From the NCBI GenBank assembly GCA_017435385.1, contig JAFSFB010000009.1, positions 62,001 to 126,000 on the forward strand: 64,000 bases of DNA, read 5' to 3'. The notes under the pieces are model-generated. The model worked only from the letters and a program-made list of their open reading frames with translations. It ran no database searches and was not told the origin of the DNA. Both the position numbers and the translations under genes were made by a program. Source of the DNA: Clostridia bacterium. Lineage in GTDB: Bacteria > Bacillota > Clostridia > Oscillospirales > Acutalibacteraceae. This document shows, piece by piece, positions 6,484-47,376 of this stretch (positions are counted from its first letter, which is position 1; each line of letters opens with the position of its first letter).

Positions 6484-7419
6484 TTATATGTTTGAATACT
6501 GATTATTTTTGATTATCTGATAAGCCTTTTTCAGCTCCTGTATTCCGTCGTCAAGAGAATAAAGAGGTTTCCAGCCGAGCGACTCGAGCTTTTCGTTGGA
6601 AACGATATAGTTTCTCTTGTCGGGATCCTCTCCGACGGGAGCTTCGATATAGACAAACTTTGGAATATGGAGCTTGATTTTTTCGCAGAGCTCGATTTTG
6701 GAAAGGTTGGAATCCGAAAGGCCGCAGTTATGAGTGCCGCCTTCCATCTTTTCAAAATTCTCGATCGCAAACCAGAAAGCGTTTGCCGCATCCCTGACAT
6801 GAAGATAGTTTCTCTTGAAGCTGCCTTCAAAAATGACGATCGTTCTGTCAAAAACCGCTCTGTAAACAAAATCGTTGACCAGCAGGTCTGTTCTCATTCT
6901 CGGAGAAGCGCCGAAAAGAGTTGCAAAACGGAAAGCAGTAGTTCCGCTTTCGCTGAGCACCGCCGCCTCTGCCTCGACCTTGCTTTTACCGTAAATGGAG
7001 ATCGGCTTTATCGGAGAATTCTCCGTGCAGAAATTCTCGCCTTCGCCGAGACCGTAGCCGCTGTTAGTGCAGGGAAAAATAATTCTCTGTCCTTTTTCTC
7101 TTAACCTGAGAATCATTTTCACGGCATCGAGATTGATCGAATAAGCCGAGCATGCCTCTTTGTCACAAATCGGGAAGCCCGCAAGCGCCGCAAGAGGAAT
7201 GATATAGTCCTTGCCCTTCATGGCTTCTCTGACCGCTGATTCATTCCTTGCATCAGCATTGATCATCTCAAAATTTTCGTTTGAGCAGCATTCAAGCAGG
7301 GAATTCTGATTATAGAAAAAATTGTCAAGAACGGTAACTCTGCAGCCCTTTGAAAGAAGAAGAGGAACAAGAACCGAGCCTATGTAACCTGCACCGCCCG
7401 TAACCAGAATGTTAAGCAT
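6484..7419 (-). CDS. NAD-dependent sugar epimerase/dehydratase (extended SDR)
   Basis: 311 aa. Rossmann-fold nucleotide-sugar modifying enzyme. It shows the NAD-binding GGAGYIG at residues 8-14, an acidic residue after strand 2 (VTVLDNF), the AALAG segment, and the catalytic YGKSK (Tyr-x-x-x-Lys) near residue 142. The C-terminal half has a substrate-binding pattern (RNYLHVRDAANAF). RBS GGAAGTG lies upstream of the ATG. Divergent from the radical SAM gene at 7579 and adjacent to a heptose-type nucleotide-sugar operon, so it probably converts an NDP-heptose or related NDP-sugar; the exact reaction (epimerisation, dehydration or reduction) cannot be assigned. Confidence 0.88.
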   Translation of the reverse strand: MLNILVTGGAGYIGSVLVPLLLSKGCRVTVLDNFFYNQNSLLECCSNENFEMINADARNESAVREAMKGKDYIIPLAALAGFPICDKEACSAYSINLDAVKMILRLREKGQRIIFPCTNSGYGLGEGENFCTENSPIKPISIYGKSKVEAEAAVLSESGTTAFRFATLFGASPRMRTDLLVNDFVYRAVFDRTIVIFEGSFKRNYLHVRDAANAFWFAIENFEKMEGGTHNCGLSDSNLSKIELCEKIKLHIPKFVYIEAPVGEDPDKRNYIVSNEKLESLGWKPLYSLDDGIQELKKAYQIIKNNQYSNI

Positions 7420-7578: not shown

Positions 7579-9510
7579 GTGAAGAACATCTATTTCGTTC
7601 AGGCAAATAATGTTTACGGTAACGAACGCAGATCCGTCTATATTCCCTATGCCTCGGGCTGCATTGCCGCCTATGCTTTTGACGACGAAAAGATCCGTTC
7701 CGAATGCAGACTTGCAGGCTTTGTTTATACCCATGAGCTTATTGCTCAAGCGGTCGAAAAGCTTGCCGATCCGTTCATCGTTGCGTTTTCCTGCGCTGTC
7801 TGGAACTATGAATATAACAAGGCTCTCGCAAAAGCAGTCAAAGAAAAATATCCCGACTGCGTGACCGTTTTCGGCGGACATAATGTTCTGCGTGATTTCG
7901 GCACTCTCGAGGAATGCCCCGAGGCCGACTTCGTAATCTACCGTGAGGGCGAAGAAGCCTTCCGTGAGCTTGTTCTCTGCCTGCTCGAAAACAAGTCACC
8001 CGAAAGCGTTGCGAGCATCGCATTCAGAAAAGACGGCTCATATTTCAAAACCGAAGAAAAAAGCTTTTGCCTGAGCGAATATCCGTCACCTTACCTTAAC
8101 GGCATCTTCGATTCGATTGCCGACGGCAAGACAAACTTCTCTGCAATCCTCGAAACCAACCGAGGCTGTCCCTTCAAATGCGCATTCTGCGATTGGGGAA
8201 CGCTCGGAAGCCGTGTGCGGCTTTTTCCATTGGATAGAATCAAGGCGGAAATCGACTGGATCTCTGCTCACGGAATCGAATATGTCTACTGCGCCGACGG
8301 AAACTTCGGTCTTTTCGACCGTGACGAAGAAATCGCTGAATATATAATTTCATCAAAAAAATCGACGGGATATCCTAAAAATTTCAGGGTATGCTTCACC
8401 AAAAACCGAACCGAATTTGTCAAAAAAATATGCATGCGCTTCAACGAATTCGGGCTCGACAAAGCTCAGACTCTGTCCTTCCAGACCCTGTCGGATGCCG
8501 CACTCGAAAACATCGGAAGAAAAAACATCTCTCTCAGTCATTTCCGTGAGCTTATGAACGAATACAGCCGATGCGGGATCTCAACCTCATCTGAGCTGAT
8601 CTTAGGCCTTGCGGGAGAAACGAGAGAAAGCTTCACCAAGGGAATATGCGACCTTCTTGAATACGGTCAGCACAAGGCGATTCAGGTCTACACCTGCGAC
8701 CTTCTCCCGAATTCCGAAATGGGTTCTCCCGAATACATCAGAAAATTCGGCATCGAAACTGTCCGGACTCCGTTCTTTCAGGCTCATTGCAAAGCATCGG
8801 AAAAGCATGAAATTCAGGAATATAACACAGCCGTTATCAAAACCGATTCACTCAGCACCCGTGACTGGATTGACTGCGTTGCGTTCGCCTGTCTGATTCA
8901 GGCATTCCATAACATCGGCTTTTTCCGCACCGTTACGCTCTTCCTCAGAAACGGACTCGGCATAAGCTATTATGAAATCTATTCGCTTATTGCGGAATAC
9001 TCTGAAAAGAACAAAGCCTCCGCTTGCGGCAAAGTTTATTCGCTGATAACCGAATTTGCCAAGGGCATGACTCAGGGCAAAAATGCATGGGCTGTCGCCT
9101 GCGATTCACTCGGAGATATCTGCTGGCAGTTTGACGAGATTTATTTCCTGAAGGCTCTCGAAAACGCCGACAGGATATACGAGGAGCTTGAAAAGCTCTT
9201 TTCGGAAAAATACGGCTCATCCGATGAGCTTTCAGCCGCATTCGATTATCAGAAAAAGATCCTCAAACGCACAAGCACGGGCGGAGAAATAACAATCTCC
9301 TCCGAATATGATTTTTATACCTATTGCAAAAATATTTACGACGGATGCACCTCCCCTCTCAAAAAGAAGAAAACGGTTATCAGGGTAACGGACAACGATC
9401 CCTGCACCTCGCTTTTTGACTATGCCTGCTCCGTCGTATGGTACGGCAGAAATCAGTCTGCAGCGCTCTACACCTCGGACTGCTATTCACCGGAATTAAT
9501 TACAGAATGA
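7579..9510 (+). CDS. Cobalamin-binding-type radical SAM protein, paralogue 1
   Basis: 643 aa. Layout: an N-terminal alpha/beta domain (1-150) with the pattern of B12-binding domains (VTVFGGH at 95-101, YREGEEAF at 121-128; no classic DxHxxG), a radical SAM barrel with RGCPFKCAFCDWG (Cys197, 201, 204 for the [4Fe-4S] cluster) followed by a CADGNFG segment, and a C-terminal domain of about 230 aa shared by all six paralogues, ending in a WYGRN-type motif. The start is the GTG at 7579: AAAGGAG lies 9 bases upstream, and MKNIYFVQ matches the starts of paralogues 3 and 6. Family knowledge says such class B enzymes often methylate unactivated carbons or rearrange carbon skeletons. The substrate here is unknown; context suggests a glycan or lipid-linked sugar. 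Stop overlaps the next gene region. Confidence 0.88.
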   Translation: MKNIYFVQANNVYGNERRSVYIPYASGCIAAYAFDDEKIRSECRLAGFVYTHELIAQAVEKLADPFIVAFSCAVWNYEYNKALAKAVKEKYPDCVTVFGGHNVLRDFGTLEECPEADFVIYREGEEAFRELVLCLLENKSPESVASIAFRKDGSYFKTEEKSFCLSEYPSPYLNGIFDSIADGKTNFSAILETNRGCPFKCAFCDWGTLGSRVRLFPLDRIKAEIDWISAHGIEYVYCADGNFGLFDRDEEIAEYIISSKKSTGYPKNFRVCFTKNRTEFVKKICMRFNEFGLDKAQTLSFQTLSDAALENIGRKNISLSHFRELMNEYSRCGISTSSELILGLAGETRESFTKGICDLLEYGQHKAIQVYTCDLLPNSEMGSPEYIRKFGIETVRTPFFQAHCKASEKHEIQEYNTAVIKTDSLSTRDWIDCVAFACLIQAFHNIGFFRTVTLFLRNGLGISYYEIYSLIAEYSEKNKASACGKVYSLITEFAKGMTQGKNAWAVACDSLGDICWQFDEIYFLKALENADRIYEELEKLFSEKYGSSDELSAAFDYQKKILKRTSTGGEITISSEYDFYTYCKNIYDGCTSPLKKKKTVIRVTDNDPCTSLFDYACSVVWYGRNQSAALYTSDCYSPELITE

Positions 9511-9521
9511 AGGGATGTGTT

Positions 9522-11447
9522 TTGCCTGTGAAGAAAAATGTCTATTTCGTTCAGGTTGACGTGTCATCGGGCAAAGATTCCAGAGTTGTTTATCTGCCGT
9601 ATACGGCAGGCGTTATCATCGCAAATGCTTTCTGCAACGCAAAAGTCACAGCTTCGTATGAATTCAAGGATTTTATTTTCATAAGAAAGAATATCGAAGA
9701 TGTCGTCAGCGAAATGGAAGACCCCGCCGTTGTCGGTTTCTCCAATTATTGCTGGAACACCGAATATAACCTTGCTCTTGCAAAAGAGATCAAGAAAGCT
9801 TATCCCGACTGTGTAACCGTTTTTGGCGGTCATAATATTCCGCAGACCACGGCTTTCCTTGAAAAATATGAGCAGACAGATTTTCTCTGCTTCGGTGAAG
9901 GCGAGGTCACCTTCGGCAACCTCCTTGCCGCCCTTGCCGACGGAAGCGTTGAGGATACAGCGAATATCGCTTACAGAAAAGACGGCAGATGCTTCCTGAG
10001 CGAAACGAGATCGATCTGCAAAAACGATTATGCTTCTCCGTATCTTGACGGATGGTTCGATAAGGTTCTTGAAAAATATCCGCACATCGAATTCAACACC
10101 ATTCTTGAAACATCAAGGGGCTGCCCGAATTCCTGCGCATATTGCGATTGGGGACCGCTTAAAGAAAGAACCCGATTTTTCCCTCTCGAAAAAGTTCTCG
10201 CAGAAATCGATTGGATCGGCAGAAACGGAATCCGCTTTGTCTGGGGTGCCGATGCAAACTTCGGTATCGGCAAAAACGATCTTGACATCGCAGATGCTCT
10301 TGTTGCCGCAAAAGAAAAATACGGCTATCCCGAACGAGTCCGCATCAACTATTCCAAGGGCAATTCCGAGCGGGTGCGTGAAATCGTGCGCCGTTTCAAC
10401 CGCAAGGGTATCGATCGGGAGGGTGCAACCCTCTCTCTCCAGAGTCTTTCGCCCGTTGTTCTCGAAAACATCGGCAGAAAAAACATGTCCCTTGAGCGTC
10501 TGAGTGAGCATTTCAGCGTTTACCACGAAGAAGGTCTGCAGGTCTATTCCGAGCTTATTCTCGGTCTCCCCGGCGAAACCTATGACAGCTTCGTTGACGG
10601 CATCTGCAAGCTTTTTGAGATCGGACAGCATTTCATTTTTGAGGTCTATCATTGCATCGTGCTTCCCAACTCTCTTCTCGGTCAGCCCGAATATATGGAA
10701 AAGCACGGAATTAAAACCTCACGCTGCGAAATAGTCCGTTTTCACTGTACCGCCGATGCATACTACATTCCCGAAAAAATCGATATCATAACCGAAACAG
10801 CAACGATGCCGTGTTCCGATTGGCAGAAAAGCTCTCTTTTCGCCGCATTCACTCAGGCAATGCATGCCTGCGGACTTCTCCGCTGCTTCTCGGTTTATGC
10901 GTTTAACGAGCTCGGAATCGGCTACAGAAGCTTTTACGAGGGAGCCATGAAATATATCGAATCGGGTGCCGCTCCCTACACAAACTCTCTCTATCAGAAT
11001 GTCAAAAGCTCCTTTGCGGAGCTTGCAAAGGGCATCAATCCGAGATTTTATGCTCCCCATGTCGGCAACCTCGTATGGGACCATTATGAATATATGTTTC
11101 TTGATATCAGCGCAAATCCCGATAAATTCTATTCGGAGATGATGCCTTATCTGCGCACCGTTATCAAAGACGAAAGCATTCTTTCTCAGCTTGCCGACTA
11201 TCAGAAAGCAATCCTCAGAAGACCGAATGAAGAAAAATCCGAATGCGAGAGCGAATATAATTTCCATGATTATTTCAGCGGCATTTATGTCGGCAGGCAT
11301 CCGACTCTCGAAAAGGGTCGATTCAGAACGGTTTTCACCGATTCCAACCCTGTCAACAGCTGGGAAGGCTTCGGAAAGTTCGTTGTCTGGTACGGAAAAA
11401 TGGGCAGCAAGTCCTATAAGAATTCAGTTGAAGTTATCAAAAACTGA
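9522..11447 (+). CDS. Cobalamin-binding-type radical SAM protein, paralogue 2
   Basis: About 641 aa. Same architecture as paralogue 1: FGGHNI and FGEGEVTF in the N-terminal domain, RGCPNSCAYCDWG cluster motif near residue 200, GADANFG, LSLQSLSP and NIGRKNMS in the barrel, SELILGLPGETYDSF, and the shared C-terminal domain ending VVWYGKMG. The start is uncertain: ATG 9507 overlaps the previous stop, TTG 9522 has AAGGGA 6 bases upstream and gives a start aligned with the other paralogues, and GTG 9528 is also possible. Almost certainly translated from the same mRNA as paralogue 1. Followed by a strong terminator shared with the convergent operon. Confidence 0.87.
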   Translation: MPVKKNVYFVQVDVSSGKDSRVVYLPYTAGVIIANAFCNAKVTASYEFKDFIFIRKNIEDVVSEMEDPAVVGFSNYCWNTEYNLALAKEIKKAYPDCVTVFGGHNIPQTTAFLEKYEQTDFLCFGEGEVTFGNLLAALADGSVEDTANIAYRKDGRCFLSETRSICKNDYASPYLDGWFDKVLEKYPHIEFNTILETSRGCPNSCAYCDWGPLKERTRFFPLEKVLAEIDWIGRNGIRFVWGADANFGIGKNDLDIADALVAAKEKYGYPERVRINYSKGNSERVREIVRRFNRKGIDREGATLSLQSLSPVVLENIGRKNMSLERLSEHFSVYHEEGLQVYSELILGLPGETYDSFVDGICKLFEIGQHFIFEVYHCIVLPNSLLGQPEYMEKHGIKTSRCEIVRFHCTADAYYIPEKIDIITETATMPCSDWQKSSLFAAFTQAMHACGLLRCFSVYAFNELGIGYRSFYEGAMKYIESGAAPYTNSLYQNVKSSFAELAKGINPRFYAPHVGNLVWDHYEYMFLDISANPDKFYSEMMPYLRTVIKDESILSQLADYQKAILRRPNEEKSECESEYNFHDYFSGIYVGRHPTLEKGRFRTVFTDSNPVNSWEGFGKFVVWYGKMGSKSYKNSVEVIKN

Positions 11448-11462
11448 CCTAAAACAAGCAAA

Positions 11463-11490
11463 AGCCTCACGCCGACAACAGCGTGAGGCT
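11463..11490. terminator. Bidirectional terminator between convergent operons
   Basis: Perfect 10-bp stem AGCCTCACGC / GCGTGAGGCT with an 8-base loop. T-rich tract ATTTTATTTTTT on the plus side and TTTTGC on the minus side, so it can end both the plus-strand radical SAM pair and the long minus-strand operon. Confidence 0.9.
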
Positions 11491-11494
11491 GATT

Positions 11495-12226
11495 TTATTT
11501 TTTCAGAATCTTTTCCTTTGGCATAAATCTTATGTGCAGTGCGGTTTTCAGATATAGCGGAATCTGAAGAGCGGAATTGTTTGCCTTTCCCTGCTTGCGT
11601 GAATGGCAGTCCGTCGGGAGCTCCTTGATCTTGCAGCCGAGCCGAACGGGCTTTAACACCATTTCAATAAAAATCGGAAAACCCGTTTCCTCAAAATTGA
11701 TTTTTCTGAGCAGGTCTGCGGAAATGATCTGAAACGGTATGGTGAAATCCGTCAGATCGCTTGAATAAAGAACTGCAAGAAACTTCTGCGAGAAGAAATT
11801 GAGAAGCTTTCTGAATTTGTTATAGCCCTCAAACTCACTTCCGCCAAGCCATCTCGACGCCGAAAAGATCGTGTCGGGTTCTTTTTTTGCGCATTTTATC
11901 ATCTGAGGGATCAGATCAAGGTCAAGAGCCATGTCCGAATCAACGGTTATAACATGCGAACCCTCCGCCATATCGAACGCCTCGGTCAGAAATCCGAGCT
12001 TAGGTCTTTTCTGAAGAAAGATATGAACGGGCACATCGCTTTTCATCGTTACAAGCTCATTGATAACCCCGAAGCATTCCTCTGTTACACGATCGGGGTA
12101 GCCGATGATTATTTCCTTCAGATCCGAGTGGTCGCAGTTTTCGAGAATATAGTTCACGGTATACCGAAGGGAATCCGTTTCCGTGACGGCTCCCGTCACT
12201 ATCGAAACGCCCGTGAATTCATTCAT
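11495..12226 (-). CDS. Family 2 glycosyltransferase
   Basis: 243 aa. GT-A fold glycosyltransferase: GVSIVTGAVTETDSL start strand, donor-binding IIIGYPD, and the metal-binding DSDMALD near residue 93 (DxD). The central ASRWLGGSEFEGYNKF and later FTIPFQIISADLLRK, GFPIFIEM resemble the dolichol-phosphate mannosyltransferase/undecaprenyl sugar transferase type, but no membrane segment is present, so it is probably cytoplasmic or peripherally membrane-bound. It is the last gene of the minus-strand operon, 13 bases after paralogue 3, and is the natural candidate to transfer the sugar made by the heptose enzymes. Confidence 0.88.
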   Translation of the reverse strand: MNEFTGVSIVTGAVTETDSLRYTVNYILENCDHSDLKEIIIGYPDRVTEECFGVINELVTMKSDVPVHIFLQKRPKLGFLTEAFDMAEGSHVITVDSDMALDLDLIPQMIKCAKKEPDTIFSASRWLGGSEFEGYNKFRKLLNFFSQKFLAVLYSSDLTDFTIPFQIISADLLRKINFEETGFPIFIEMVLKPVRLGCKIKELPTDCHSRKQGKANNSALQIPLYLKTALHIRFMPKEKILKK

Positions 12227-12239
12227 TAAAACGCACTCC

Positions 12240-14165
12240 TTAAATATATTCTACACTCAGACCGGGGTTGAGCGTAATTCCGTTGCTGCCAAACCAGACC
12301 GCTTCAAGAGCATATTCCTTCCAGTTGGTTCTGTGAACCTCATTGTTCACGCTGATTCTGTTTCTCTTTTTTTCAAGCGGCTTGGGATCTCCCGAAAGAG
12401 CGCTTGTAAAATACTTCGCCCAGTCATATTCAAACTCAACCGAATAATTATTCTTGAACGGAAGCTTCAGAACGGTTTTCTGGAATTCAAGCAATTCCTC
12501 GAGAATATCGTCCTCAACCCCAAGATATCTGAGCGAAGGCTTGATCTCCCAATAAAACTCATCAATGCGGTAGATCGTTGCAAGGTGTGCCGCTTTTTTA
12601 GGCACCCAGGTTATATCACCGAAAATGGGATTGGAATAGAGCTCTATCGGCTTTTCTTCCGATATCGCCTTATAATAGTTATAGAGGAAATCGTATGCGG
12701 GTCTGAGAACCGATTCGATGTTCTTTTTTGCATAACGGATAACCATGTTGTAAATTTCATCGTACGGGATGCCTTTTTCGTTATGAAGATATACCGCAAT
12801 ATATTTCATGATTCCGTGATGGTGCAAAGACTCCTCCATGCACGCAAAAACATTGCAGGCGATCCAATCCTCCGTGCTCAGAGTGTTTGTTCCGATAACA
12901 TAGACGGTTTTTTCTTTAACCTCATCATCGACCTCGCTGTGAGCAGTCAGAGCTTCAATTTCAGCTGTTCTGATCCCGTGCTTCTTCATATATTCGGGCT
13001 GAGCCATGGGCGAATTGGGAAGAAGCTCGCAGTTATAGGTGGTAATCAGTCTGTGCTGACCCGCATCGAGAAGCATTCCTATGCCCTTGCAGAAGCTCTC
13101 ATAGGTTTCGCCGGGCAATCCGGTTATGATCTCCGAATAGGTGGTTATGCCCTCTTTTCTGTAAAGAGAAAGAAGCTCGCTGAACTTATCCATGCTCATA
13201 TTCCGTCTGCCGATGTTTTCAAGAACAACGGGAGAAAGGCTCTGGAAGGAAAGCGTTGCGCCCTCCTTGCTCATGCCGTATTTTTCGAGCTTACAGCTTA
13301 TCTCAAAAACTCTCTCGGGCTTATCCATGGCATAATTGATGCGAAGCCTTTCGGGACAGCCTGTCTTCTCTCTCTTGTCAATAAGATAATCGACAATATC
13401 CATATCCCTCTCAGCCGCACCGAAATTGGAATCCGCACCCCATATAAACTTGACTCCGTGGTCGCTCATCCAGTCGATCTCGGCAAAAATTCTTTCCGTC
13501 GGGAAGAATCTGATTTTAGAGCTGTTGCAGCCCCAGTCGCAATAGGCGCAGCTTCTCGGACAGCCTCGGGAGGTTTCGAGAATCGCATCAAGCTGCATTT
13601 CGGGGTTTTCTTCAAAAATGCTGTCAAACCAGCCGTTGAGATACGGCGACGGATAATCGGTCCTGCAAAGAATCTCTGTAGGAGTCTTTCTGAAGCCGTT
13701 TTCCCCGTCACGGTAAGAAATGTTGGAGATCTTTGAAAAATCCTTTTCTTCCTTGCAGAATTCAAGCAAAAGAGCCTTGAAAGCTTCTTCTCCCTCGCCG
13801 TGAATAAGATAGTCTATGAAGGGATATTTCTCGAGAAACGAATTATCGGGCGGAACATTATGTCCGCCGAAAATAACAACGCAGTCAGGAAAAGCCTTTT
13901 TAACCTTTTCCGCAAGAACAAGGTTATACTGCGTGTTCCAGATATAATTTGAAAAACCGATGACTGCAGGGGCTTCAAGACTCTGCACCGCCTCATCGGT
14001 TTTTTCTCTTGTAAAGATGAACCTCTTGAAGCTGTAATTGCTCTTCACCCGTTCATCCTCAAACGCATATGCCGCAAGAAGGCCGACCGCATACGGAAGA
14101 TACGCCGCTTTAAAGCCTCTGCCTACATAGGTATTTGATGCCTGCACCAAATACAAATTTCTCAT
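12240..14165 (-). CDS. Cobalamin-binding-type radical SAM protein, paralogue 3
   Basis: 641 aa. N-terminal domain with VIFGGHNVPPDNSF and IHGEGEEAF, cluster motif RGCPRSCAYCDWG near residue 200, then FIWGADSNFG, SFQSLSPVVLENIGRRNMS, and SEIITGLPGETYESF. C-terminal shared domain contains NVFACMEESLHHHG and ends AVWFGSNG. The start is the internal ATG at 14165 because AAGAGGT is 6 bases upstream; the extra 7 residues upstream have no ribosome site. It is preceded by a 144-base gap, the longest inside this operon, that is very AT-rich and may hold a secondary promoter. Barrel motifs are closest by eye to paralogue 2 (GADxNFG, SLSPVVLENIGRKNMS). Confidence 0.88.
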   Translation of the reverse strand: MRNLYLVQASNTYVGRGFKAAYLPYAVGLLAAYAFEDERVKSNYSFKRFIFTREKTDEAVQSLEAPAVIGFSNYIWNTQYNLVLAEKVKKAFPDCVVIFGGHNVPPDNSFLEKYPFIDYLIHGEGEEAFKALLLEFCKEEKDFSKISNISYRDGENGFRKTPTEILCRTDYPSPYLNGWFDSIFEENPEMQLDAILETSRGCPRSCAYCDWGCNSSKIRFFPTERIFAEIDWMSDHGVKFIWGADSNFGAAERDMDIVDYLIDKREKTGCPERLRINYAMDKPERVFEISCKLEKYGMSKEGATLSFQSLSPVVLENIGRRNMSMDKFSELLSLYRKEGITTYSEIITGLPGETYESFCKGIGMLLDAGQHRLITTYNCELLPNSPMAQPEYMKKHGIRTAEIEALTAHSEVDDEVKEKTVYVIGTNTLSTEDWIACNVFACMEESLHHHGIMKYIAVYLHNEKGIPYDEIYNMVIRYAKKNIESVLRPAYDFLYNYYKAISEEKPIELYSNPIFGDITWVPKKAAHLATIYRIDEFYWEIKPSLRYLGVEDDILEELLEFQKTVLKLPFKNNYSVEFEYDWAKYFTSALSGDPKPLEKKRNRISVNNEVHRTNWKEYALEAVWFGSNGITLNPGLSVEYI

Positions 14166-14309
14166 TATGTTACCTCTTACCCTCAATAAAATCAGACAAA
14201 AACAATATAATGTCTGTTTTTTATTTTAATACCATTAAAGAAAATAATCAATAGTATTTTTCGATTTTGAACATATAGAGAAACAAGTGTATATTTTTAC
14301 AGCATCAAA

Positions 14310-16238
14310 TCAGTTTGCATATTCAATTTTAATATTTTCTCTGCCGTTTGTGCAGATCGTTGCGCTTCGTCTTTTTCCGAACCAGATAATCTCTCTTGCA
14401 TATTCAGCCCAATCGGAGATCTTCTTTTCGAGCTGTATCGTAAGCTCCGTTCTGACCTTTTTCAAAGGCTGATATTCATCATCATATATTCCCTGAAAAT
14501 AGCTGTAGAAATCATATTCCGTCGAAATGCTGACGGTTTCCGTTTCGGGTAAGCGAAGAACGGATTTCTGATATTTCAGAAGCTCACCGTAAATCTCATC
14601 GTCAACGCCGAGCGACTCGATGAAAGGAGCGATATCCTGCCAGAAAACCTCTCTGTTGTAAATAAGGTCAAGGAAGATTCCCTCCTCGAAATACCATCCG
14701 ACCTTGCTGAAGATATCCTTCTGATAGCACCAGTCGGAAACCTCCGTATTTTCGGTCTTCCAACGGATCTCCTCAAAAAGCTTATATATATATTTCGATT
14801 CGTCGCTGAAAATATAATCAAGCAGACGGTTATAGAATTCATAATAGCTTATGCCGAGCTCGTGCCTTGCATAGATAGCAAAGCAGCGGAGCAGACCGAG
14901 ATGGTGGAAGCTCTGAAGGCAGACGGAAAACATGTTTGCCTTCACCCACATCTCCTTGCTCATATCCTTTGTTTCAACAACAACATCGTAATATTCCTGA
15001 ACGCCGTTGAAGTTTGCGGGATAATGTATTCCGTGAAGCGGCTGACGCTCCCAGCGGATTTTATATTTGTCGACCATTTCCCTGCTTGCTATCGGAGCAT
15101 TGCAGTAAACCTGACAGGTGTAGACGGTCATCGAATTATGCTGTCCGTTTTCAAGCAATCTGCAAAGCCCGTTGCAGAAGCTGTCATAGGTTTCTCCCGG
15201 CAAGCCGAGAATCAGCTCCGTATAGGTCGGAATTTTTTCCTCTGCGTATTTTGCGGTCAGCCCCGAATAATGCTCAAGAGTCAGATTCTTTCTTCCGATG
15301 TTTTCGAGAGTCTGCTCATCGAGCGACTGATATGCGAGCGTGACGCCTTTGTCAATTCCGCTGTGATTAAGGATCCTGCCGATCTCAAAAACGGTTTCGT
15401 CGCTGTTCTTGGCATAGCAGGGCTTGAACACCTGCGGATAACCGTTCTTCCGATTGACCTCCAGAACATATTCCGCCGTTTCGATATCACGCTTCTCGAT
15501 GCCGAAATTGGCATCGGCGCAATAGCAATAGGGTATTTTGTGCTCGGATATCCAATCGATATCCTTTTTGATCCTCTCCATCGGAAAGAGCCTTATCCTC
15601 TTTGTGAAGCACCAATCGCAGAAGGCGCAGGAATACGGACATCCCCTGTTTGTTTCGAGAGTTGCATGGAAAGTGATATCGGGATATCTTTCGAGAATGG
15701 GGTCAAAAATCTTCTCTGCATACGGCGACGGATATGAGGTTATGTCATAAACACGCTTCTTTTCTGTCGAAACGAAACCGCCGTTCTGCCTGAACGAAAT
15801 GTCGGGAATGTGCGAAAAACCGTTTCCGTCATTGACCGCTTTGAGAAGCATTGCAAAAGGCTCTTCGCCCTCAGAATGCATCAGAACATCAATGAATCCG
15901 TGCTTTTCGAGAAGAGAGGTATCGTCGGGAACATTGTGACCGCCGAAAACAATAATACACTCGGGATATTTTTCCTTTATCATCCGTGCAAGGCGCAGAT
16001 TATATTCCATGTTCCACACATAGCATGAAAAACCGACAACGGAGGGATCTTCAATTTTTGCAAAGGTTTCTCCGAGCTGATGTCGGATGCACAGAATATC
16101 CGAAAGCTCCCAGCTCTGCTTTATCTCGTCGTCGCTGAAAGCATATGCGGCAAGGCAGCCCGCAGCATACGGAAGATAGGCTATCGTTTTGCTGTAGGTT
16201 ACATTGATCTGAACAAGATACAGTTTCTTTCTGTCCAT
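14310..16238 (-). CDS. Cobalamin-binding-type radical SAM protein, paralogue 4
   Basis: 642 aa. FGGHNVPDDTSLL and HSEGEEPF in the N-terminal domain, cluster motif RGCPYSCAFCDWC near residue 200 (a fourth cysteine follows the DW), YCYCADANFG, AYQSLDEQTLENIGRKNLT, TELILGLPGETYDSF. The C-terminal domain has MFSVCLQSFHHLGLLRCFAIYA and ends IIWFGKRR. The true start is the ATG at 16238 (MDRKKLYLVQ), one base after the stop of paralogue 5, with GGAG 10 bases upstream; the longer open frame upstream lies inside paralogue 5. By eye it is closest to paralogue 6. Confidence 0.88.
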   Translation of the reverse strand: MDRKKLYLVQINVTYSKTIAYLPYAAGCLAAYAFSDDEIKQSWELSDILCIRHQLGETFAKIEDPSVVGFSCYVWNMEYNLRLARMIKEKYPECIIVFGGHNVPDDTSLLEKHGFIDVLMHSEGEEPFAMLLKAVNDGNGFSHIPDISFRQNGGFVSTEKKRVYDITSYPSPYAEKIFDPILERYPDITFHATLETNRGCPYSCAFCDWCFTKRIRLFPMERIKKDIDWISEHKIPYCYCADANFGIEKRDIETAEYVLEVNRKNGYPQVFKPCYAKNSDETVFEIGRILNHSGIDKGVTLAYQSLDEQTLENIGRKNLTLEHYSGLTAKYAEEKIPTYTELILGLPGETYDSFCNGLCRLLENGQHNSMTVYTCQVYCNAPIASREMVDKYKIRWERQPLHGIHYPANFNGVQEYYDVVVETKDMSKEMWVKANMFSVCLQSFHHLGLLRCFAIYARHELGISYYEFYNRLLDYIFSDESKYIYKLFEEIRWKTENTEVSDWCYQKDIFSKVGWYFEEGIFLDLIYNREVFWQDIAPFIESLGVDDEIYGELLKYQKSVLRLPETETVSISTEYDFYSYFQGIYDDEYQPLKKVRTELTIQLEKKISDWAEYAREIIWFGKRRSATICTNGRENIKIEYAN

Positions 16239-16239
16239 T

Positions 16240-18174
16240 TTATGAATTACTCCGTTTCGAAATTGCTTGTCTGAAATGCGTACTGTTTCCGTCTTTTCTG
16301 CTGAACCACGCAACGACCTCGGCAAACCTTGCCCATGAATCGAACCGTTCCGCCTTGACAGACACAGTATTGTCAGCCTTTTCAAGCGTTGGCTTTTCGC
16401 CGTCAACTATCCTTCTGAAATAGTCAAGGAAATCATATGAAAGCTCAAACTCTGCCGTCACATTGAAAGGATGCTTTGTTATCCCTCTCTGGAATTTCAT
16501 CAGCTCTTCGGATATTTCTCCGTCAATGCCGAAGCCGTCAATAAACTCTTTAAGCTCGGCATAGAATTCATCTGACTCGTATGTCAGACAGAGGAAAAGA
16601 TATTCCTCAAAAGTCCACAGTATATCGCCGAAGCGTGAGTCACAGATGCTCAGAGTGCCCTTTTCGGCAAGCACATCATCAAGCTTTTCCTCAATTCGGT
16701 GCAGCGCTCTGCCGACCGGGCTCTCATGCCTCGGATAAAAATAATCAACAAAGGAGCAATAGAAATTCTTGTAGCTGCTCAGACCCTCGTTATAAAGATA
16801 GAGCGCAAAGAACTGCATAAGTCCCATATGGTGGCATGCCTGAACGACCGCCGAAATAATATTCATCAGCTTCCAGTCCTCATTCGTCATGGAATAAGTC
16901 GAGGTAATGATTGACGAATATTCGGGTATCTCATCGATATCCGATGCGCTTCTGTGAGGCTGATTAAGGGGGATAAGCGATTTTTGGATTTTATACCGTT
17001 CAATATAATCCTTCTGCCCCATTATCGAGCAGGGAAGCCATTCGCAGTTATGAATATAAATCGAGTTATGCTGTCCGAGGTTGAGCAGGCTGTCAAGCGA
17101 ATCAACGAAGCTCTGAACGGTTTCACCGGGCAGACCGAGAATCAGCTCCGTATATGTTGCAATGCCTGCTTCATTATAAAGATTCATCAGCTCCGAGAAA
17201 AACTCCGTGCTGATATTTTCTCTTCCGATGTTTCTGAGCGTTGTTTTGTCCATAGACTGAAACGAAAGCGTAACGCCCTTGCTCAAGCCGTTTTTTTCAA
17301 GCTTCAGCCCGATATCAAAGACCTTCTTGCTGCTGTTCTTCTCGTAAGAAGTCTGGAACTTGACAGGGTAGCCCGTTGCTTTTTTCGTTTCAATGATCTT
17401 GTCCGCAATCTCACCGTCACGGCTGAACATTCCGAAATTTGAGTCCGCAGAGCCAAGACCGAAAATTCTGTTCTTTCCCATCCATTCAATTTCGCCGTAA
17501 ACCCTTTCGATCGGAAATTTACGGATCTTTGATTTCATGCTGCTCCAATCGCAATAAGCGCACGAATTCGGACAGCCTCTTGAAGTTTCGATAAGTGCCA
17601 TAAAAACGAGGTCGGGATTCTCCACGAGGATCCTGTCAAAATATCCTTCAAGATAAGGCGACGGAAAATCGCATTCGCAGGCAACTGCCTCGGGAGTTGT
17701 CAGAATTCCGTTTTCTGTACGCACGGATATTCCAGGAATATCCTCCGCTCTGTCAAGCCCTATAAGAGCCCTCAGAAGGCGGCGGAAGGTTACCTCTCCC
17801 TCACCGTGGAGAAGATAATCGATCTGCGGGCATTCTTCAAGAAGACCTCCGCCGGGGGCAACATGATGCCCTCCGAAAATAATAACGCAGTCGGGATATT
17901 TTTCTTTTATGCGTCTTGCCGCCTCTTTGTTATAATTGCTGTTCCAGAGATATGTTGAAAACGCCACAACACTCGGATCATCAATTTTCTCAAGCAGAGA
18001 ATCGATCGGTTCACGCAGAAAGAATATGCGTTCAAGAGAATAATTCTCCGCAACATCTTTATCTGCAAACGCATAGGCGGAAATCTGACCCGCCGTATAT
18101 GGAATATGAGCAGATTTTCCGTAAATATAATTAACCTGCAGGAAATAGAGTTTTCGTTTCAAGGGGAATTTCAC
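16240..18174 (-). CDS. Cobalamin-binding-type radical SAM protein, paralogue 5
   Basis: 644 aa. FGGHHVAPGGGLL and LHGEGEVTF in the N-terminal domain; cluster motif RGCPNSCAYCDWS near residue 200; GSADSNFG, SFQSMDKTTLRNIGREN, TELILGLPGETVQSF. The C-terminal domain ends VVAWFSRKDG, so it is the only copy lacking the Trp-Tyr/Phe-Gly form of the end motif. The start is taken as GTG 18174 (MKFPLKRKLYFLQ), 20 bases after the stop of paralogue 6, with GAAAGG just upstream; the spacing is short, so the start is less certain than in the other copies. Confidence 0.86.
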   Translation of the reverse strand: MKFPLKRKLYFLQVNYIYGKSAHIPYTAGQISAYAFADKDVAENYSLERIFFLREPIDSLLEKIDDPSVVAFSTYLWNSNYNKEAARRIKEKYPDCVIIFGGHHVAPGGGLLEECPQIDYLLHGEGEVTFRRLLRALIGLDRAEDIPGISVRTENGILTTPEAVACECDFPSPYLEGYFDRILVENPDLVFMALIETSRGCPNSCAYCDWSSMKSKIRKFPIERVYGEIEWMGKNRIFGLGSADSNFGMFSRDGEIADKIIETKKATGYPVKFQTSYEKNSSKKVFDIGLKLEKNGLSKGVTLSFQSMDKTTLRNIGRENISTEFFSELMNLYNEAGIATYTELILGLPGETVQSFVDSLDSLLNLGQHNSIYIHNCEWLPCSIMGQKDYIERYKIQKSLIPLNQPHRSASDIDEIPEYSSIITSTYSMTNEDWKLMNIISAVVQACHHMGLMQFFALYLYNEGLSSYKNFYCSFVDYFYPRHESPVGRALHRIEEKLDDVLAEKGTLSICDSRFGDILWTFEEYLFLCLTYESDEFYAELKEFIDGFGIDGEISEELMKFQRGITKHPFNVTAEFELSYDFLDYFRRIVDGEKPTLEKADNTVSVKAERFDSWARFAEVVAWFSRKDGNSTHFRQAISKRSNS

Positions 18175-18194
18175 TAACCTTTCGGGTAATTCTG

Positions 18195-20084
18195 TCAGCT
18201 CAGGCTGTATAAAGTTGCGCCTTTGCGTCTGCCGTACCAGACGATTTCCTTGGCAAAGCACGGCCAGTCCTCATATTTTTTTGCGGCGGTGAATTCAAAG
18301 CTTGTCCGCACCGCCCGAAGCTCCGCAGTTTTATCGGCTCCGATCTTTTCAAAATATGATGCAAAATCATAGTCGCATTCAAAGGTCTTTCCGCTTTCAA
18401 ACGGGCGTCTGACCGCATTGAGCTGGAATCTGAGAAGCTCTTCATAGACCTTTTTATCCTCAACGAGAGGCTTCACAAAGCCGTCAACAAGTCTTTCAAA
18501 TTCATCGAAATTATATAAAAACTCAAGGAATAAGCCTTCCTCGAAAAACCATGTTACATTACCGAAAACCGGATTGCTGTGGTTCCATTCGCCTTCAAGA
18601 GAGCCGTCAAGCTTTTTCTTGATCTCTCTGAAAAGTTTTCCCGTCAATCCGCTGTCCTCAAGGCAGTAAGAAAGCAGCGACTTATAGAAATCATAATAGT
18701 CAATTCCGAGCTCATAATATGCATAGATCGCAAAATATCTCAAAAGCCCGAGGCTGTGAAAGCATTGAAGGCAGATCGAGAAAAGATTGGCATAAACCCA
18801 TCCGTCACGGGTAAGCGTGTTCGTCGAACGGACAAGATACGAATATTCGGGAATGCCGTCTTTTTTGCCGCTTGCCGAATGAATGTGATTGAATTTGACC
18901 TTCATCGGCTCGATCTCAAACTTCTTCATATAATCGGGATCGCACATCGGTGCATTCGGAAGAAGCTCGCAATAATAAACGCTGATCGAATTATGCTGAC
19001 CCGCTCTGAGAAGCTTGCAGAGTCCTTGGCAAAAGCTCTCCGCCGTTTCGCCCGGCAAGCCGAGAATCAGCTCGGAATAGGTCGGGATCTTCGCCTCGGT
19101 ATAGCTTGCCATGAGATCGGAGAAATGCTCCATGGTCAGATTTTTTCTGTTGATATTTTTAAGTGCATCGTCGCAGAGAGTCTGATAAGCCATTGTTGCG
19201 CCCTTATCAAGCCCCCTCGAGTTGAGAGTTTTCGAGATGTTGAAAACTCTTTCTGCACTGTTCTTTTCATAACACGGTCTGAACACCTTGGGAAATCCCG
19301 TTTTTTTGTTAAGCTCCACGATATATTCCGCAATTTCGACATCTCTGTCAAACATTCCGAAATTCGCATCTGCGCAGAAGCAGTATTCGATCTTATGCTC
19401 GGAAAGCCATTTCAGCTCACCTCTGACCTTTTCCATGGGGAAAAGTCTGAGCTTCTTATGGTTGCTCCAGTCGCAGTAAGCGCAGTTATACGGACAGCCT
19501 CTGTTCGTTTCGATGATCGTGTCAAACATCGTGTCGGGATTTTTTTCGATTATCGGATCGAAAACACCCGTCAGATACGGCGAAGGATAATCCTCGACCG
19601 ACTCGGGACAATTCGGAGCGGTGAGTATCTTGCTTCCGTCGGAATCTCTGAATGCTATTCCGCAGCAGTCACTCAGGTCAGCATTGTCCCTGAGAGCCCT
19701 GAGAAGATTCGCCGTGACCTCTTCGCCCTCTCCGAGAGTCAGAATGTCGATATAATCTTTTTCAAGGAATTCCATTCTGTCCGAAACGCTGTGTCCGCCG
19801 AAAACGATTATGCAGTCGGGATATCTTTCCTTGACCGCCCTGGCAAGAGCTTTGTTGAACTCAACATTCCAGACATATGTTGAAAACGCAGCGATATAAG
19901 GCGATTCCATTCCGTCAACGATTTTTTCAATATCATCTCTGCGGAAGATAATCTCCTTGAAGTCATATTCGGCTGCAATATCAGGCTTGCTCCTGCAATA
20001 GGCAACGATAGTGCCTGTCGCATAGGGCAGATAAACGGACTTGTCAAACGCAAATCCTACCTGAATGAAATAAACGTTTTTCAA
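18195..20084 (-). CDS. Cobalamin-binding-type radical SAM protein, paralogue 6
   Basis: 629 aa. FGGHSVSDRMEFL and TLGEGEEVT in the N-terminal domain; cluster motif RGCPYNCAYCDWS near residue 195; YCFCADANFG, AYQTLCDDALKNINRKNLT, SELILGLPGETAESF. The C-terminal domain has LFSICLQCFHSLGLLRYFAIYA and ends IVWYGRRKG. Start codon is TTG with AGGTG 9 bases upstream, 2 bases after the stop of the heptose enzyme gene, so translation of the two is likely coupled. This direct junction is the best evidence that the radical SAM enzymes and heptose-type enzymes act in one pathway. Confidence 0.89.
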   Translation of the reverse strand: MKNVYFIQVGFAFDKSVYLPYATGTIVAYCRSKPDIAAEYDFKEIIFRRDDIEKIVDGMESPYIAAFSTYVWNVEFNKALARAVKERYPDCIIVFGGHSVSDRMEFLEKDYIDILTLGEGEEVTANLLRALRDNADLSDCCGIAFRDSDGSKILTAPNCPESVEDYPSPYLTGVFDPIIEKNPDTMFDTIIETNRGCPYNCAYCDWSNHKKLRLFPMEKVRGELKWLSEHKIEYCFCADANFGMFDRDVEIAEYIVELNKKTGFPKVFRPCYEKNSAERVFNISKTLNSRGLDKGATMAYQTLCDDALKNINRKNLTMEHFSDLMASYTEAKIPTYSELILGLPGETAESFCQGLCKLLRAGQHNSISVYYCELLPNAPMCDPDYMKKFEIEPMKVKFNHIHSASGKKDGIPEYSYLVRSTNTLTRDGWVYANLFSICLQCFHSLGLLRYFAIYAYYELGIDYYDFYKSLLSYCLEDSGLTGKLFREIKKKLDGSLEGEWNHSNPVFGNVTWFFEEGLFLEFLYNFDEFERLVDGFVKPLVEDKKVYEELLRFQLNAVRRPFESGKTFECDYDFASYFEKIGADKTAELRAVRTSFEFTAAKKYEDWPCFAKEIVWYGRRKGATLYSLS

Positions 20085-20086
20085 AA

Positions 20087-21328
20087 TTATAACACCTGCT
20101 CCAGTTCAAAAAGGCTTTGGTAATGCGCCGAAGCGATCTCGGCAGCATCGGGCTCGTCTGAACCGATGAGAATAATATTTTTTATACCTGCATTGATTCC
20201 CGCAAGCAGATCCGATCGGCGGTTGCCTGCAAGAACTGAGTTTTCCAGATCAATTTCAATTCCGATCTTTTCAAAATCCGAAACCGCATTCAGGATGAGC
20301 CCCGCTTCGGGCTTGCGGCACGGACACACCGCCCGATATTCTTCCAGCACGGCATCGGGATGATGCGGACAGTAATAATACCCGTCGGCAACGACCGCAT
20401 GCTTTTCAAGAAGCAGAGAATCGATATATCCGTGAAGAGCATCGACATCCTCGGGCTTATAAAGGTTTTTCGCTATTCCTGCCTGATTGGTGACAACGAT
20501 AACAAGACAGCCCTTTTCCTTCATTCGGGCAACCGCTTTGTCCGCATCGGGCAGAAACTCAAAATCCTGCGTGCGGTAAAGATGACCCGTGTCAACATTC
20601 AGCGTTCCGTCACGGTCAAGAAAAACCGCTTTTCTTTTTCTCCTTGATTTCAGCATTCCGCTTTCTGCGTTTGCTCTGGCAAACTCCTCGGGAATGCCGA
20701 TATCTATGAAATATGCATCGCTTTCACAAACCCTTACGGGCATGAGAAGCTTTTCAAGCACCTGCTTTTCAAACGAAAATTTTTCTTCGTGTATTCCGTC
20801 AAGTGCGTTTTTGTCAATAAAGTAAATACCGCCGTTTATCAGACCTTCTCCCGAAACGCCCTTTTCGGCAAAGCCGCTGAGCCGGCCGTTTTTAATCTCG
20901 AGAAATCCCGAGCGTTTAACATCAGGCAGTTTTTTTGCCGCAAGAGTTATCGGACAGCCCGAGGACTCATGAAGCCTCTGCATTTTGGAAAGGTCAACAT
21001 CATAGAAGGTATCACCGTTGATGACCGCAGCATATTTTCCTCTGCACATTCCGAGAGCTTTTTTAATCGCTCCGCCCGTGCCGAGGGGGTTTTCTTCACG
21101 GCAATATGCAACCGTCATTCCCCGATATCGGGCTCCGAGGGCTTCTTCGATTTTTTCGGACATATATCCCGTCGAGATAATCGCTCTGTGAACTCCGTTT
21201 GCGTAAAGATAATCCAGAAGATAGGTCAGAAACGGTCTTCCGTTTATCGGAGCAAGGGGCTTTGGCAGGTCATCAACGCACGGTCTGAGCCTTGTTCCGA
21301 ATCCGCCTGCAAGAACGATCGCCTCCAT
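20087..21328 (-). CDS. Bifunctional sugar-phosphate nucleotidyltransferase / heptose-bisphosphate phosphatase
   Basis: 413 aa. Two enzymes fused. Residues 1-225 are a nucleotidyltransferase (AIVLAGGFGTRLRP, PKPLAPINGRPFL, NGDTFYDVD) of the HddC type, which in known pathways makes GDP-D-glycero-alpha-D-manno-heptose from heptose 1-phosphate. Residues 232-413 are a HAD-superfamily histidinol-phosphatase/GmhB-like phosphatase (KRKAVFLDRDGTLN with the DxD nucleophile, VVTNQAGIAK, CPHHPDA and CPCRKP zinc-loop cysteines) that removes the 7-phosphate from heptose 1,7-bisphosphate. The two steps are consecutive around the 1-phosphate intermediate. Flanked by the kinase and the cupin gene. No GmhA isomerase is in the window. 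Nucleotide specificity is not readable. Confidence 0.9.
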   Translation of the reverse strand: MEAIVLAGGFGTRLRPCVDDLPKPLAPINGRPFLTYLLDYLYANGVHRAIISTGYMSEKIEEALGARYRGMTVAYCREENPLGTGGAIKKALGMCRGKYAAVINGDTFYDVDLSKMQRLHESSGCPITLAAKKLPDVKRSGFLEIKNGRLSGFAEKGVSGEGLINGGIYFIDKNALDGIHEEKFSFEKQVLEKLLMPVRVCESDAYFIDIGIPEEFARANAESGMLKSRRKRKAVFLDRDGTLNVDTGHLYRTQDFEFLPDADKAVARMKEKGCLVIVVTNQAGIAKNLYKPEDVDALHGYIDSLLLEKHAVVADGYYYCPHHPDAVLEEYRAVCPCRKPEAGLILNAVSDFEKIGIEIDLENSVLAGNRRSDLLAGINAGIKNIILIGSDEPDAAEIASAHYQSLFELEQVL

Positions 21329-21330
21329 TA

Positions 21331-21693
21331 TCAGTTACCCTCCGCAATAATATCCTTTGTTCCGTCGGGAAGCTCAACTCCCCTGTCATAAAACGAAACG
21401 AGGACCGTGTCCTCTTTATAGTCAAAAGTATGAACAACCTTAGGTTCAATGAGAAACATATCTCCCTTGCCGAAGCTGAAAAGCTCTTTTCTTCCGTCAA
21501 GGCTTGCCTCAACCGTAAACGAGCCTTCAACAACATAAAAGCCCTCCCTGTTGAGAGCGTGATAATGCCTTCCCCTCTCAAAGCCTGCCTTTGAAACAAC
21601 AACATTTATCTGCTTGTAGCCCTCTCTGACAAGCTGAACAAGGCTGCCTCTTTCATCCTCGAAAACAAAATCGGGTTTTAAAATCTTAATCAT
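21331..21693 (-). CDS. Cupin-fold protein, WxcM/FdtA-like sugar isomerase or binding protein
   Basis: 120 aa. Single-domain double-stranded beta-helix: GRHYHALNREGFYVVEGS is the first cupin motif (two His, Glu) and FLIEPKVVHTFDY the second (His). Among sugar pathways, small cupins of this form are nucleotide-sugar ketoisomerases or epimerases (FdtA/WxcM type). It sits 2 bases from the bifunctional heptose gene and 11 bases from the kinase gene, so a role on the same nucleotide-heptose is likely. A purely regulatory or sugar-binding cupin cannot be excluded. Confidence 0.78.
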   Translation of the reverse strand: MIKILKPDFVFEDERGSLVQLVREGYKQINVVVSKAGFERGRHYHALNREGFYVVEGSFTVEASLDGRKELFSFGKGDMFLIEPKVVHTFDYKEDTVLVSFYDRGVELPDGTKDIIAEGN

Positions 21694-21704: not shown

Positions 21705-22682
21705 TCAGTCGTTACATATTATCTGCGTTCCGTCATTTTCAAAGCGGAACCTGACCTCATGCATTCCCGAAAAAACTCTTCGCACGCTTTCGTGGTTCTC
21801 CTCGGGAACATAAAACAGAAGGCATCCTCCGCCGCCTGCGCCGAGAAGCTTTCCGCCGAGAGCTCCTGCGTTCATCGCTTTTTCGTAGCATTCATCTATA
21901 TAATCCGTTGAAATTTTACTGCTTATGCTTCTTTTGAGAAGCCATGTTTCATTCAGAAGCCTTCCGAAATCCCCGAGCGGACACTTCGGATCAATGAGGA
22001 TCTTCTCCGCAGCGTCAACCATTTTCAGCATTTCCGTGAGCTCGTTTTTCTTTCTGCTCATAGCTTCTCTGGTTGTTTCCTGAATTTCAAAGGAATATCT
22101 TGAAAGCCCCGTAAAAAACATCAGAAGATTTGAATTCAGCCTCTGTTTTCTCTCTTCGGGAATTTCAAGCGGTCTGACGGAATATCCGTCTGCGCTGAAA
22201 TCGATTCTGTTGAAGCCTCCGAATGCCGCCGCAATCTGATCCTGAATGCCTCCCGCTTCACCGCAGAGAACACGCTCCAGATATATCGCATCGTCGGCAA
22301 GCTCACGCCTGGTCTTGGATATGCCCTGCATGGTATAGAAAGCGTTCAGCATCCCAACGGAAAATGAGCTGCTTGTTCCGAGCCCTGTTTTTGACGGAAC
22401 ATCCGCATCATAGTTCAGAGCTATTCTTTCAAGACCCAGCCATTTCATCGCATTCCTTATAGCGGGATGCTTTATTTCATCGACTGAATTGACTCTTTCC
22501 GTCTGAGCATAAGAAAGCTGAGTTTTATATCCGAACAGATCGGGAAGCTCTCTGACATTAACATGACAGTATTTATCGAATGTTGTTGAAATGACCGCAC
22601 CGCCATGCTCACGGTAAAACTCGGGAAAATCCGTGCCTCCGCCAAAAAACGACATCCTCACGGGAGTTTTTGAGATTATCAA
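21705..22682 (-). CDS. hddA: GHMP-family heptose 7-phosphate kinase (HddA-like)
   Basis: 325 aa. GHMP kinase: N-terminal ISKTPVRMSFFGGGTDFPEF, ATP loop PSKTGLGTSSSFSVG near residue 100, CGEAGGIQDQIAAAFGGF, and the C-terminal LLGAGGGGCLLFYVP motif. The GGGTD start and the AGGIQDQ segment are characteristic of D-glycero-alpha-D-manno-heptose-7-phosphate kinase (HddA), which phosphorylates C1. The start is TTG 22682, since GGGAGG lies 8 bases upstream and the family begins with IISKTP; the GTG at 22691 overlaps that ribosome site. L-fucose/arabinose-type kinases of the same superfamily are alternatives, but the GmhB-like and nucleotidyltransferase neighbours favour heptose. Confidence 0.85.
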   Translation of the reverse strand: MIISKTPVRMSFFGGGTDFPEFYREHGGAVISTTFDKYCHVNVRELPDLFGYKTQLSYAQTERVNSVDEIKHPAIRNAMKWLGLERIALNYDADVPSKTGLGTSSSFSVGMLNAFYTMQGISKTRRELADDAIYLERVLCGEAGGIQDQIAAAFGGFNRIDFSADGYSVRPLEIPEERKQRLNSNLLMFFTGLSRYSFEIQETTREAMSRKKNELTEMLKMVDAAEKILIDPKCPLGDFGRLLNETWLLKRSISSKISTDYIDECYEKAMNAGALGGKLLGAGGGGCLLFYVPEENHESVRRVFSGMHEVRFRFENDGTQIICND

Positions 22683-22724
22683 CAGCCGCACCTCCCGCTT
22701 ACAAATTCAGAATATGTTCCTCGA

Positions 22725-23789: not shown

Positions 23790-23813
23790 GTTATCCCTCA
23801 TTTCTTCGGGTAA

Positions 23814-25046: not shown

Positions 25047-25115
25047 AATAAGCACCTCCGGATATGTTTCGGCTCTTTCTGAAAAAAGAGCCTATTTCAC
25101 CTATATTATCAATTC

Positions 25116-35114: not shown

Positions 35115-35365
35115 GGTATGAATGATGACAACGGATTTGTTGATGATTTGCTTCAAATGAAATAATCCTTACGGATTGTGAAATTTAATGCTGACGTATT
35201 AAGTGAAATTAAATCTACTCACCGCCGCAGCGATTTCACCCGAACAAAGCGAGAATTTCACATTGCGAAGCAATATTTCATCCAACCGATAGGGTGGATT
35301 TAGTTAAAAAAGCACTTGCTGTTGCAAGTGCTTTTTCTGGTATGAATATGGATAACGGATTCAAT
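35111..35365. repeat. Non-coding repeat unit with duplicated flanks
   Basis: A hairpin-rich AT-rich stretch with repeated GTGAAATTTA/AATTTCAC inverted motifs (35179-35275) and a terminator-like hairpin GCACTTGC-TGTT-GCAAGTGC with T5 (35311-35336). The sequence GGTATGAAT...GA(C/T)AACGGATT occurs after both hairpins (35115-35136 and 35339-35360), giving an imperfect direct duplication. It marks the boundary between the GC-richer glycan genes and the AT-rich island. It resembles a dispersed palindromic repeat; no protein is encoded. Confidence 0.55.
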
Positions 35366-37182: not shown

Positions 37183-37205
37183 ATAATCCTCCACTTTTTC
37201 ATTTG

Positions 37206-43952: not shown

Positions 43953-43954
43953 TT

Positions 43955-44380: not shown

Positions 44381-44396
44381 CAACGGAGAAAAGTTT

Positions 44397-44831: not shown

Positions 44832-44847
44832 ACAGGAGTAAGTAAAA

Positions 44848-45498: not shown

Positions 45499-45506
45499 GT
45501 GTAAAT

Positions 45507-46274: not shown

Positions 46275-46311
46275 TCACCATATTTTTATTAAATGATTTT
46301 GGAGAACAAAA

Positions 46312-46746: not shown

Positions 46747-46756
46747 GATCAAAAAA

Positions 46757-47356: not shown

Positions 47357-47376
47357 AAACATTCGGAGATATAGGT

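Follow-up and report, generated by a model that had tools for sequence, protein, structure and literature searches.

The radical SAM array and its neighbours

The DNA analysed here, referred to below as the window, is a stretch of 64,000 nucleotides (positions 62,001 to 126,000 of the forward strand of contig JAFSFB010000009.1, assembly GCA_017435385.1) from a Clostridia bacterium (Oscillospirales; Acutalibacteraceae). Between positions 7579 and 20084 are six genes, P1 to P6, that encode cobalamin radical SAM enzymes, surrounded by genes of sugar metabolism and membrane proteins (Table 1). None of the six ORFs is truncated or interrupted, and aligned end to end they are 37-40% identical to P1 (the reference) with approximately 100 invariant columns, which bears out an earlier note, made from the sequence alone, that had described six diverged full-length paralogues of one such enzyme in a single locus. 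The FGGH, GEGE, RGCPxxCAxCDW and ADxNFG segments listed in the note are likewise invariant or nearly so, as is the common C-terminal domain, and the Cx3Cx2C cluster motif is invariant in all six; the C-terminal domain, though present throughout as claimed, is one already known from TokK and CysS. The Pfam Radical_SAM domain scores above its cut-off in every paralogue, and the B12-binding domain in five, with P6 slightly under (30.9 versus 32.1 bits). The genome has no full-length family members besides these six; the next match (E 3e-43) is on a different contig.

Table 1. Features of the radical SAM locus, in window coordinates.
Feature	Position	Strand	Remarks
NAD-dependent sugar-nucleotide dehydrogenase/epimerase	6484-7419	-	53% identical to PDB 6vo6 over 308 residues
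Promoter-like site, dehydrogenase gene	7479-7451	-	consensus match only
Promoter-like site, P1-P2	7516-7544	+	11/12, extended -10; consensus match only
P1	7579-9510	+	643 aa; cobalamin radical SAM enzyme, TokK/CysS type
P2	9528-11447	+	639 aa; cobalamin radical SAM enzyme
Two-way terminator-like hairpin	11463-11490	.	between convergent operons
GT2 glycosyltransferase	11495-12226	-	weak similarity to dolichol-phosphate mannose synthase (5mlz, E 6e-6)
P3	12240-14165	-	641 aa; cobalamin radical SAM enzyme
P4	14310-16238	-	642 aa; cobalamin radical SAM enzyme
P5	16240-18162	-	640 aa from TTG start; cobalamin radical SAM enzyme
P6	18195-20084	-	629 aa; cobalamin radical SAM enzyme; paralogue tied to sugar module
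HddC-like sugar-1-phosphate nucleotidyltransferase fused to GmhB-like HAD phosphatase	20087-21328	-	both parts below curated cut-offs
Small cupin, possibly keto-sugar isomerase/epimerase	21331-21693	-
GHMP sugar kinase, HddA-like	21705-22691	-	best PDB matches 4usk, 3k85, 4n3o
Polytopic membrane protein, unknown family	22725-23801	-	about 10 predicted TM segments
Membrane protein, GT-C glycosyltransferase fold	23814-25055	-	structure model
Promoter-like site ahead of ten-gene operon	25144-25116	-	consensus match only

Most joints between the minus-strand genes are gaps of a few to 33 bases (144 between P4 and P3), and this short spacing, with the promoter-like site upstream and the hairpin downstream, suggests a ten-gene operon (25055 to 11495) that faces the plus-strand P1-P2 operon, in agreement with the two opposed operons proposed earlier. 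There is no cobalamin riboswitch in the window, which speaks against control of the locus by such an element; two are found elsewhere in the same genome.

The dehydrogenase is similar over its full length to a solved enzyme (6vo6), which we take to be Cj1427, the GDP-manno-heptose C4-dehydrogenase. The solved structures nearest to the kinase are HddA-type heptose kinases (E 1e-37 to 8e-33), and it scores 138.7 bits, below the curated heptose-family cut-off. The nucleotidyltransferase and phosphatase parts of the fusion protein score 199.3 and 142.5 bits, both below curated cut-offs, the latter narrowly. There is no GmhA in the locus, and the best GmhA-like gene of the genome, which encodes a SIS protein on contig 19 (105.6 bits), is also below the curated cut-off. 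With four curated cut-offs missed, a strict heptose assignment was downgraded, and these similarities point to heptose as the candidate sugar. No C4-reductase was found within the 64-kb window. The model of the membrane protein at 23814-25055 (pLDDT 88.1) has a GT-C fold (Z 13.2, rmsd 5.7 Å over 306 residues); its best 45 fold matches are oligosaccharyl-, mannosyl-, arabinosyl- and related transferases or GT-C-like subunits, and the protein is a putative glycosyltransferase with a GT-C transmembrane fold.

Enzyme type and cofactor residues

The best NCBIfam match of all six paralogues is the KedN5 family (NF033712), at 219-263 bits versus a curated cut-off of 700; thus membership is ruled out, and they are relatives of KedN5. 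A profile of the six matched TokK with E 3.7e-138 (positions 19-585) and CysS with E 4.7e-78. For P6, a structure model built from 64 homologues (mean pLDDT 92.6) matches TokK with Z 40.0 and rmsd 2.0 Å over 612 residues (32% identity) and CysS with Z of about 33, and has the domain order of TokK: a cobalamin-binding Rossmann domain, a radical SAM barrel and the C-terminal domain. Tryptophan is found in all six paralogues both under the cobalt (equivalent to TokK W76 and CysS W75) and two residues past the last cluster cysteine (equivalent to TokK W215), residues with described roles (PMC13331322, PMC12846815, PMC9692996). Structure prediction, which the earlier note had proposed as a check of the B12-type N-terminal domain, thus agrees with it. 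Classification of P1-P6 as cobalamin radical SAM enzymes of the TokK/CysS/KedN5 kind is well supported by the modelled fold and the conserved tryptophan under the cobalt, and given the TokK-like profile and fold and the invariant tryptophans, cobalamin-dependent radical methylation is the best prediction of their reaction.

TokK and ThnK, the C6 methylases of carbapenem synthesis (PDB 7kdx, 7kdy), share with P1-P6 the full-length fold, the cofactor tryptophans and the Cx3Cx2C motif, but identity is about 32%, and each is a single methylase acting iteratively on a pantetheinylated carbapenam rather than part of a paralogue set at a sugar locus. CysS of the cystobactamid pathway (PDB 9n1b) shares the fold and the tryptophan under the cobalt, and its pocket positions can be mapped onto P1-P6, although its substrate is aromatic and carrier-bound and most of its pocket residues are replaced in the six.

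Age and conservation of the six paralogues

Of 45 genomes in the genus (the window's own included), 27 have strong family matches, at least 3-8 in each and often in arrays. Some near-complete genomes of the genus lack the family, indicating a variable trait. In a set of 33 regions of the genus, made up of the window and 32 from relatives, each window paralogue has its own orthologous group, and in four genomes (G017, G023, G028 and G042) every one of the six groups is represented exactly once. In a quick tree with a single model, the groups form six fully supported clades with about one member per genome in each. Identity is approximately 58-85% within groups, the low end representing more distant members, and 36-49% between them, and recent duplication as the origin of P1-P6 is ruled out by the orthologue tree and these identities. 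The order nucleotidyltransferase-P6-P5-P4-P3-GT2 is kept, as is the dehydrogenase gene divergent from P1 and P2, while the outer flanks vary by lineage; thus, the locus behaves as a unit. Between close species pairs, dN/dS is 0.05-0.13 for each of P1-P6. The six orthologous groups are therefore under purifying selection across an uncultured genus of ruminant-gut Clostridia.

Substrate pocket

Positions fixed within the groups and differing between them number 84, of which 47 lie among the 261 positions of P6 residues 180-440. The substrate-facing residues named for CysS (PMC12846815) include five that vary here and can be aligned, and all five are on the group-specific list. From P1 to P6, the equivalents are S/N/D/H/M/D for W188, Y/W/W/Y/G/F for F238, R/R/R/K/Q/R for W271, V/I/I/P/T/P for L272 and C/N/N/C/S/C for S273; a sixth named residue, W206, corresponds to the invariant tryptophan after the cluster and was put with the cofactor set. 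The chance of finding all five on the list is about 2e-4 if positions are independent, which overstates the case because three of the five are adjacent. With every compared contact group-specific, P1-P6 likely have six separate specificities, and the pattern is the one expected of enzymes acting on different substrates or positions. Of the earlier suggestion of six successive or position-specific reactions on a repeating or complex product, the separate reactions agree with the orthology, purifying selection and pocket residues, whereas a repeating product was not established.

Linkage and distribution

Of the 33 regions, 15 hold P6, the dehydrogenase, the nucleotidyltransferase-phosphatase fusion and the kinase together, and the rest hold none of the four; the cupin is in 14 of the 15, and P6 adjoins the nucleotidyltransferase in 13. 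Since the regions were picked for holding family members, these counts show pairing of the paralogue with the module, not genome-wide linkage. Genes of the P1-P5 types are also found in loci without the sugar module. Thus the co-occurrence with hddA/hddC-like genes anticipated by the earlier note holds for P6 and is looser for the other five. In other arrays of the wider family, a bifunctional GHMP kinase/fucose pyrophosphorylase (GDP-fucose) replaces this sugar module, which again points to GDP-sugars. The loci of relatives encode extra kinds of radical SAM protein, one of about 493 aa with B12-binding and radical SAM domains and another of about 611 aa with a radical SAM domain and no B12 domain detected by Pfam, and there are up to 11 such radical SAM genes per locus in G042 and G023.

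Strong matches were found in 44 of 395 sampled genomes and 15 of 107 genera of the same taxonomic family. The order-level sample added one genome from another family, and the phylum-level sample none except the window's own. The named matches are uncultured Clostridia, mostly from ruminant guts. A wider P6 clade in other genera is weak (support 40) and was left out of our claims. Plasmid-borne spread is not supported, the plasmid matches being only distant (all below 60% identity). Copies per locus range from one to seven within the flanks examined, and most examined loci have at least two; strictly single occurrence, which would have weakened the pathway idea, is thus not what is seen.

The description of class B enzymes as usually single in a pathway needs amendment, as three are encoded in the asparenomycin cluster (PMC8992657) and two, GenD1 and GenK, take part in gentamicin synthesis (PMC12689558); six in one locus exceeds any described number that we found. 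The gentamicin pair, which as class B radical SAM enzymes methylate carbons at defined positions of a sugar, are likened to P1-P6 by predicted function, not sequence, and differ in belonging to an aminoglycoside pathway rather than a GDP-sugar/GT-C cassette. The capsular GDP-heptose pathway of Campylobacter jejuni comprises HddA, HddC, Cj1427, Cj1430 and Cj1428 (PMC10680097); its kinase, guanylyltransferase and C4-dehydrogenase set resembles the locus, but as described there it has no radical SAM enzymes, and the present locus differs further in the fusion of its nucleotidyltransferase to a GmhB-like phosphatase and in having neither GmhA nor a C4-reductase. No described counterpart of the six-paralogue layout was found in the literature searched, as the earlier note had supposed, though this is weak evidence because most subscription papers lay outside the search. 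The kind of enzyme is known; six non-redundant paralogues together with one sugar pathway look new.

Proposed pathway and alternatives

We propose, with a probability of roughly 0.6, that the locus is a cassette for building a GDP-heptose-type sugar, methylating carbons of the sugar or of a glycan containing it at several positions, and attaching the product outside the cell. The kinase and the nucleotidyltransferase-phosphatase fusion would produce the GDP-activated heptose-type sugar, which the Cj1427-like dehydrogenase, with the cupin, would oxidise or isomerise. Each of P1-P6 would add a methyl group to a carbon of the sugar or the glycan, at a position or stage particular to that enzyme: one SAM would methylate cob(I)alamin, a second would give rise to the 5'-deoxyadenosyl radical that abstracts hydrogen from a substrate carbon, and the carbon radical would receive the methyl group from methylcobalamin. 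The most likely substrate of P6 would be the heptose-type intermediate, with later intermediates left to P1-P5. The GT2 protein may load the sugar onto polyprenyl phosphate, from which the GT-C membrane protein may pass it to a surface acceptor. Confidence decreases from methylation as the reaction, through heptose as the sugar, to lipid-phosphate transfer, and the steps are given in the order that we infer. Several observations count against the cassette: the substrates of TokK and CysS are pantetheine-linked and not sugars, the resemblance of the GT2 protein to dolichol-phosphate mannose synthase is weak, the window has no recognised C4-reductase, P1-P5-type genes also occur without the sugar module, and all four heptose-family matches fall below curated cut-offs.

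The most serious alternative, although a doubtful one, is that some of P1-P6 do not methylate and catalyse a different cobalamin radical reaction, for example C-S bond formation or ring contraction. ThnL, of the same class, forms a thioether and does not methylate, and ring contraction is the reaction of OxsB (PMC13331322). Pocket residues also differ strongly among the six groups. OxsB, however, has an asparagine-water arrangement below the cobalt (PMC13331322), where all six paralogues keep the tryptophan of the methylases TokK and CysS. That the product of the array is a small secreted compound, a carbapenem-like or glycoside antibiotic of which the sugar is only one part, seems unlikely: the characterised close relatives (TokK, ThnK, CysS and KedN5) all belong to antibiotic pathways, and a Streptantibioticus cattleyicolor protein, probably ThnK, shares 37% identity with P6, but the locus has no recognisable polyketide, nonribosomal peptide or beta-lactam genes and has a GT-C-fold protein and a GT2 protein instead.

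Less likely still is that the enzymes modify no sugar and have a ribosomal peptide (RiPP) or a lipid as substrate. Hopanoids are known to be methylated by other cobalamin radical SAM enzymes, and one extra radical SAM type of the relatives' loci (c17) is closest to the RiPP-maturation family TIGR03975, albeit at 103 bits versus a cut-off of 282. No short ORF is conserved across the arrays except among near neighbours, and with no widely conserved precursor ORF found and family scores below cut-off, a RiPP system is improbable. Redundancy, in which the six are kept for dosage or antigenic shuffling and catalyse one common reaction, appears the least probable of these explanations, and very improbable: it would fit the single fold, the single locus and a copy number that varies among species, but not six old orthologous groups with one member each per genome in complete loci, nor substrate-contact residues that are fixed within groups and different between them.

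Implications for gut Clostridia

The C-methylating sugar cassette, if correctly predicted, would mean that common ruminant gut bacteria apply the radical methylation of rare antibiotics to surface sugars, on an unreported scale. A further possibility, offered tentatively and against the odds, is that six distinct C-methylations, or in relatives up to eleven cobalamin-type radical reactions, on one heptose-based glycan yield a densely C-alkylated, hydrophobic surface polysaccharide, of no known kind, and that the enzyme set acts as a strain-variable glycan code. With around a hundred sequences across their orthologous groups, the six natural paralogues are a ready set for the study of substrate choice in enzymes of the TokK/CysS type. 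The locus suggests a heavily carbon-methylated surface glycan, seemingly undescribed, whose C-methylated sugars might withstand ordinary glycan-degrading enzymes and could change phage binding, immune recognition and interactions within the rumen community.

Further radical SAM families and a second conserved site

Two additional radical SAM families, one of about 493 aa with a B12-binding domain and the other of about 611 aa, are interspersed among KedN5-like genes (the family of P1-P6; best NCBIfam match NF033712) at loci of the relatives G042 (L120-L121), G023 (L122-L123), G037 (L114-L115) and G008 (L129). A second conserved site, found in four genomes (L135, L138, L140 and L150), carries one or two diverged P1/P2-like copies within a set of flanking genes that is shared by all four and includes, by eye, an acyl-CoA-synthetase-like and a branched-chain-aminotransferase-like gene; the sugar module that accompanies P6 is absent from this site in each of these loci.

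Other features of the window

Sequence matches indicate that the minus-strand genes at 36571-38108 are likely a Thoeris-type defence pair. The neighbouring ORF resembles a RES-domain protein by eye, and no defence-system match was found for it. The only PADLOC match of the 1260-aa protein, to ShosT, is marginal (E 0.002). Beyond the GNAT run lie the serine-recombinase-like gene and also a tRNA cluster.

Features located in the window
Feature	Position	Strand	Basis
Gut-1 small RNA (RF01706)	35228-35306	-	score above gathering score
RES-domain-like ORF	35428-36552		by eye
ThsB-like TIR protein	36571-37194	-	E 1e-16
ThsA-like macro-domain protein	37206-38108	-	E 3e-49
GNAT run: six acetyltransferase-like genes with one methyltransferase-like gene among them	43515-47844	+	by eye
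1260-aa protein, phosphoribosyltransferase-like start, TIR/SEFIR-like end	50406-54188	+	both ends by eye
Serine-recombinase-like gene	59212-60948
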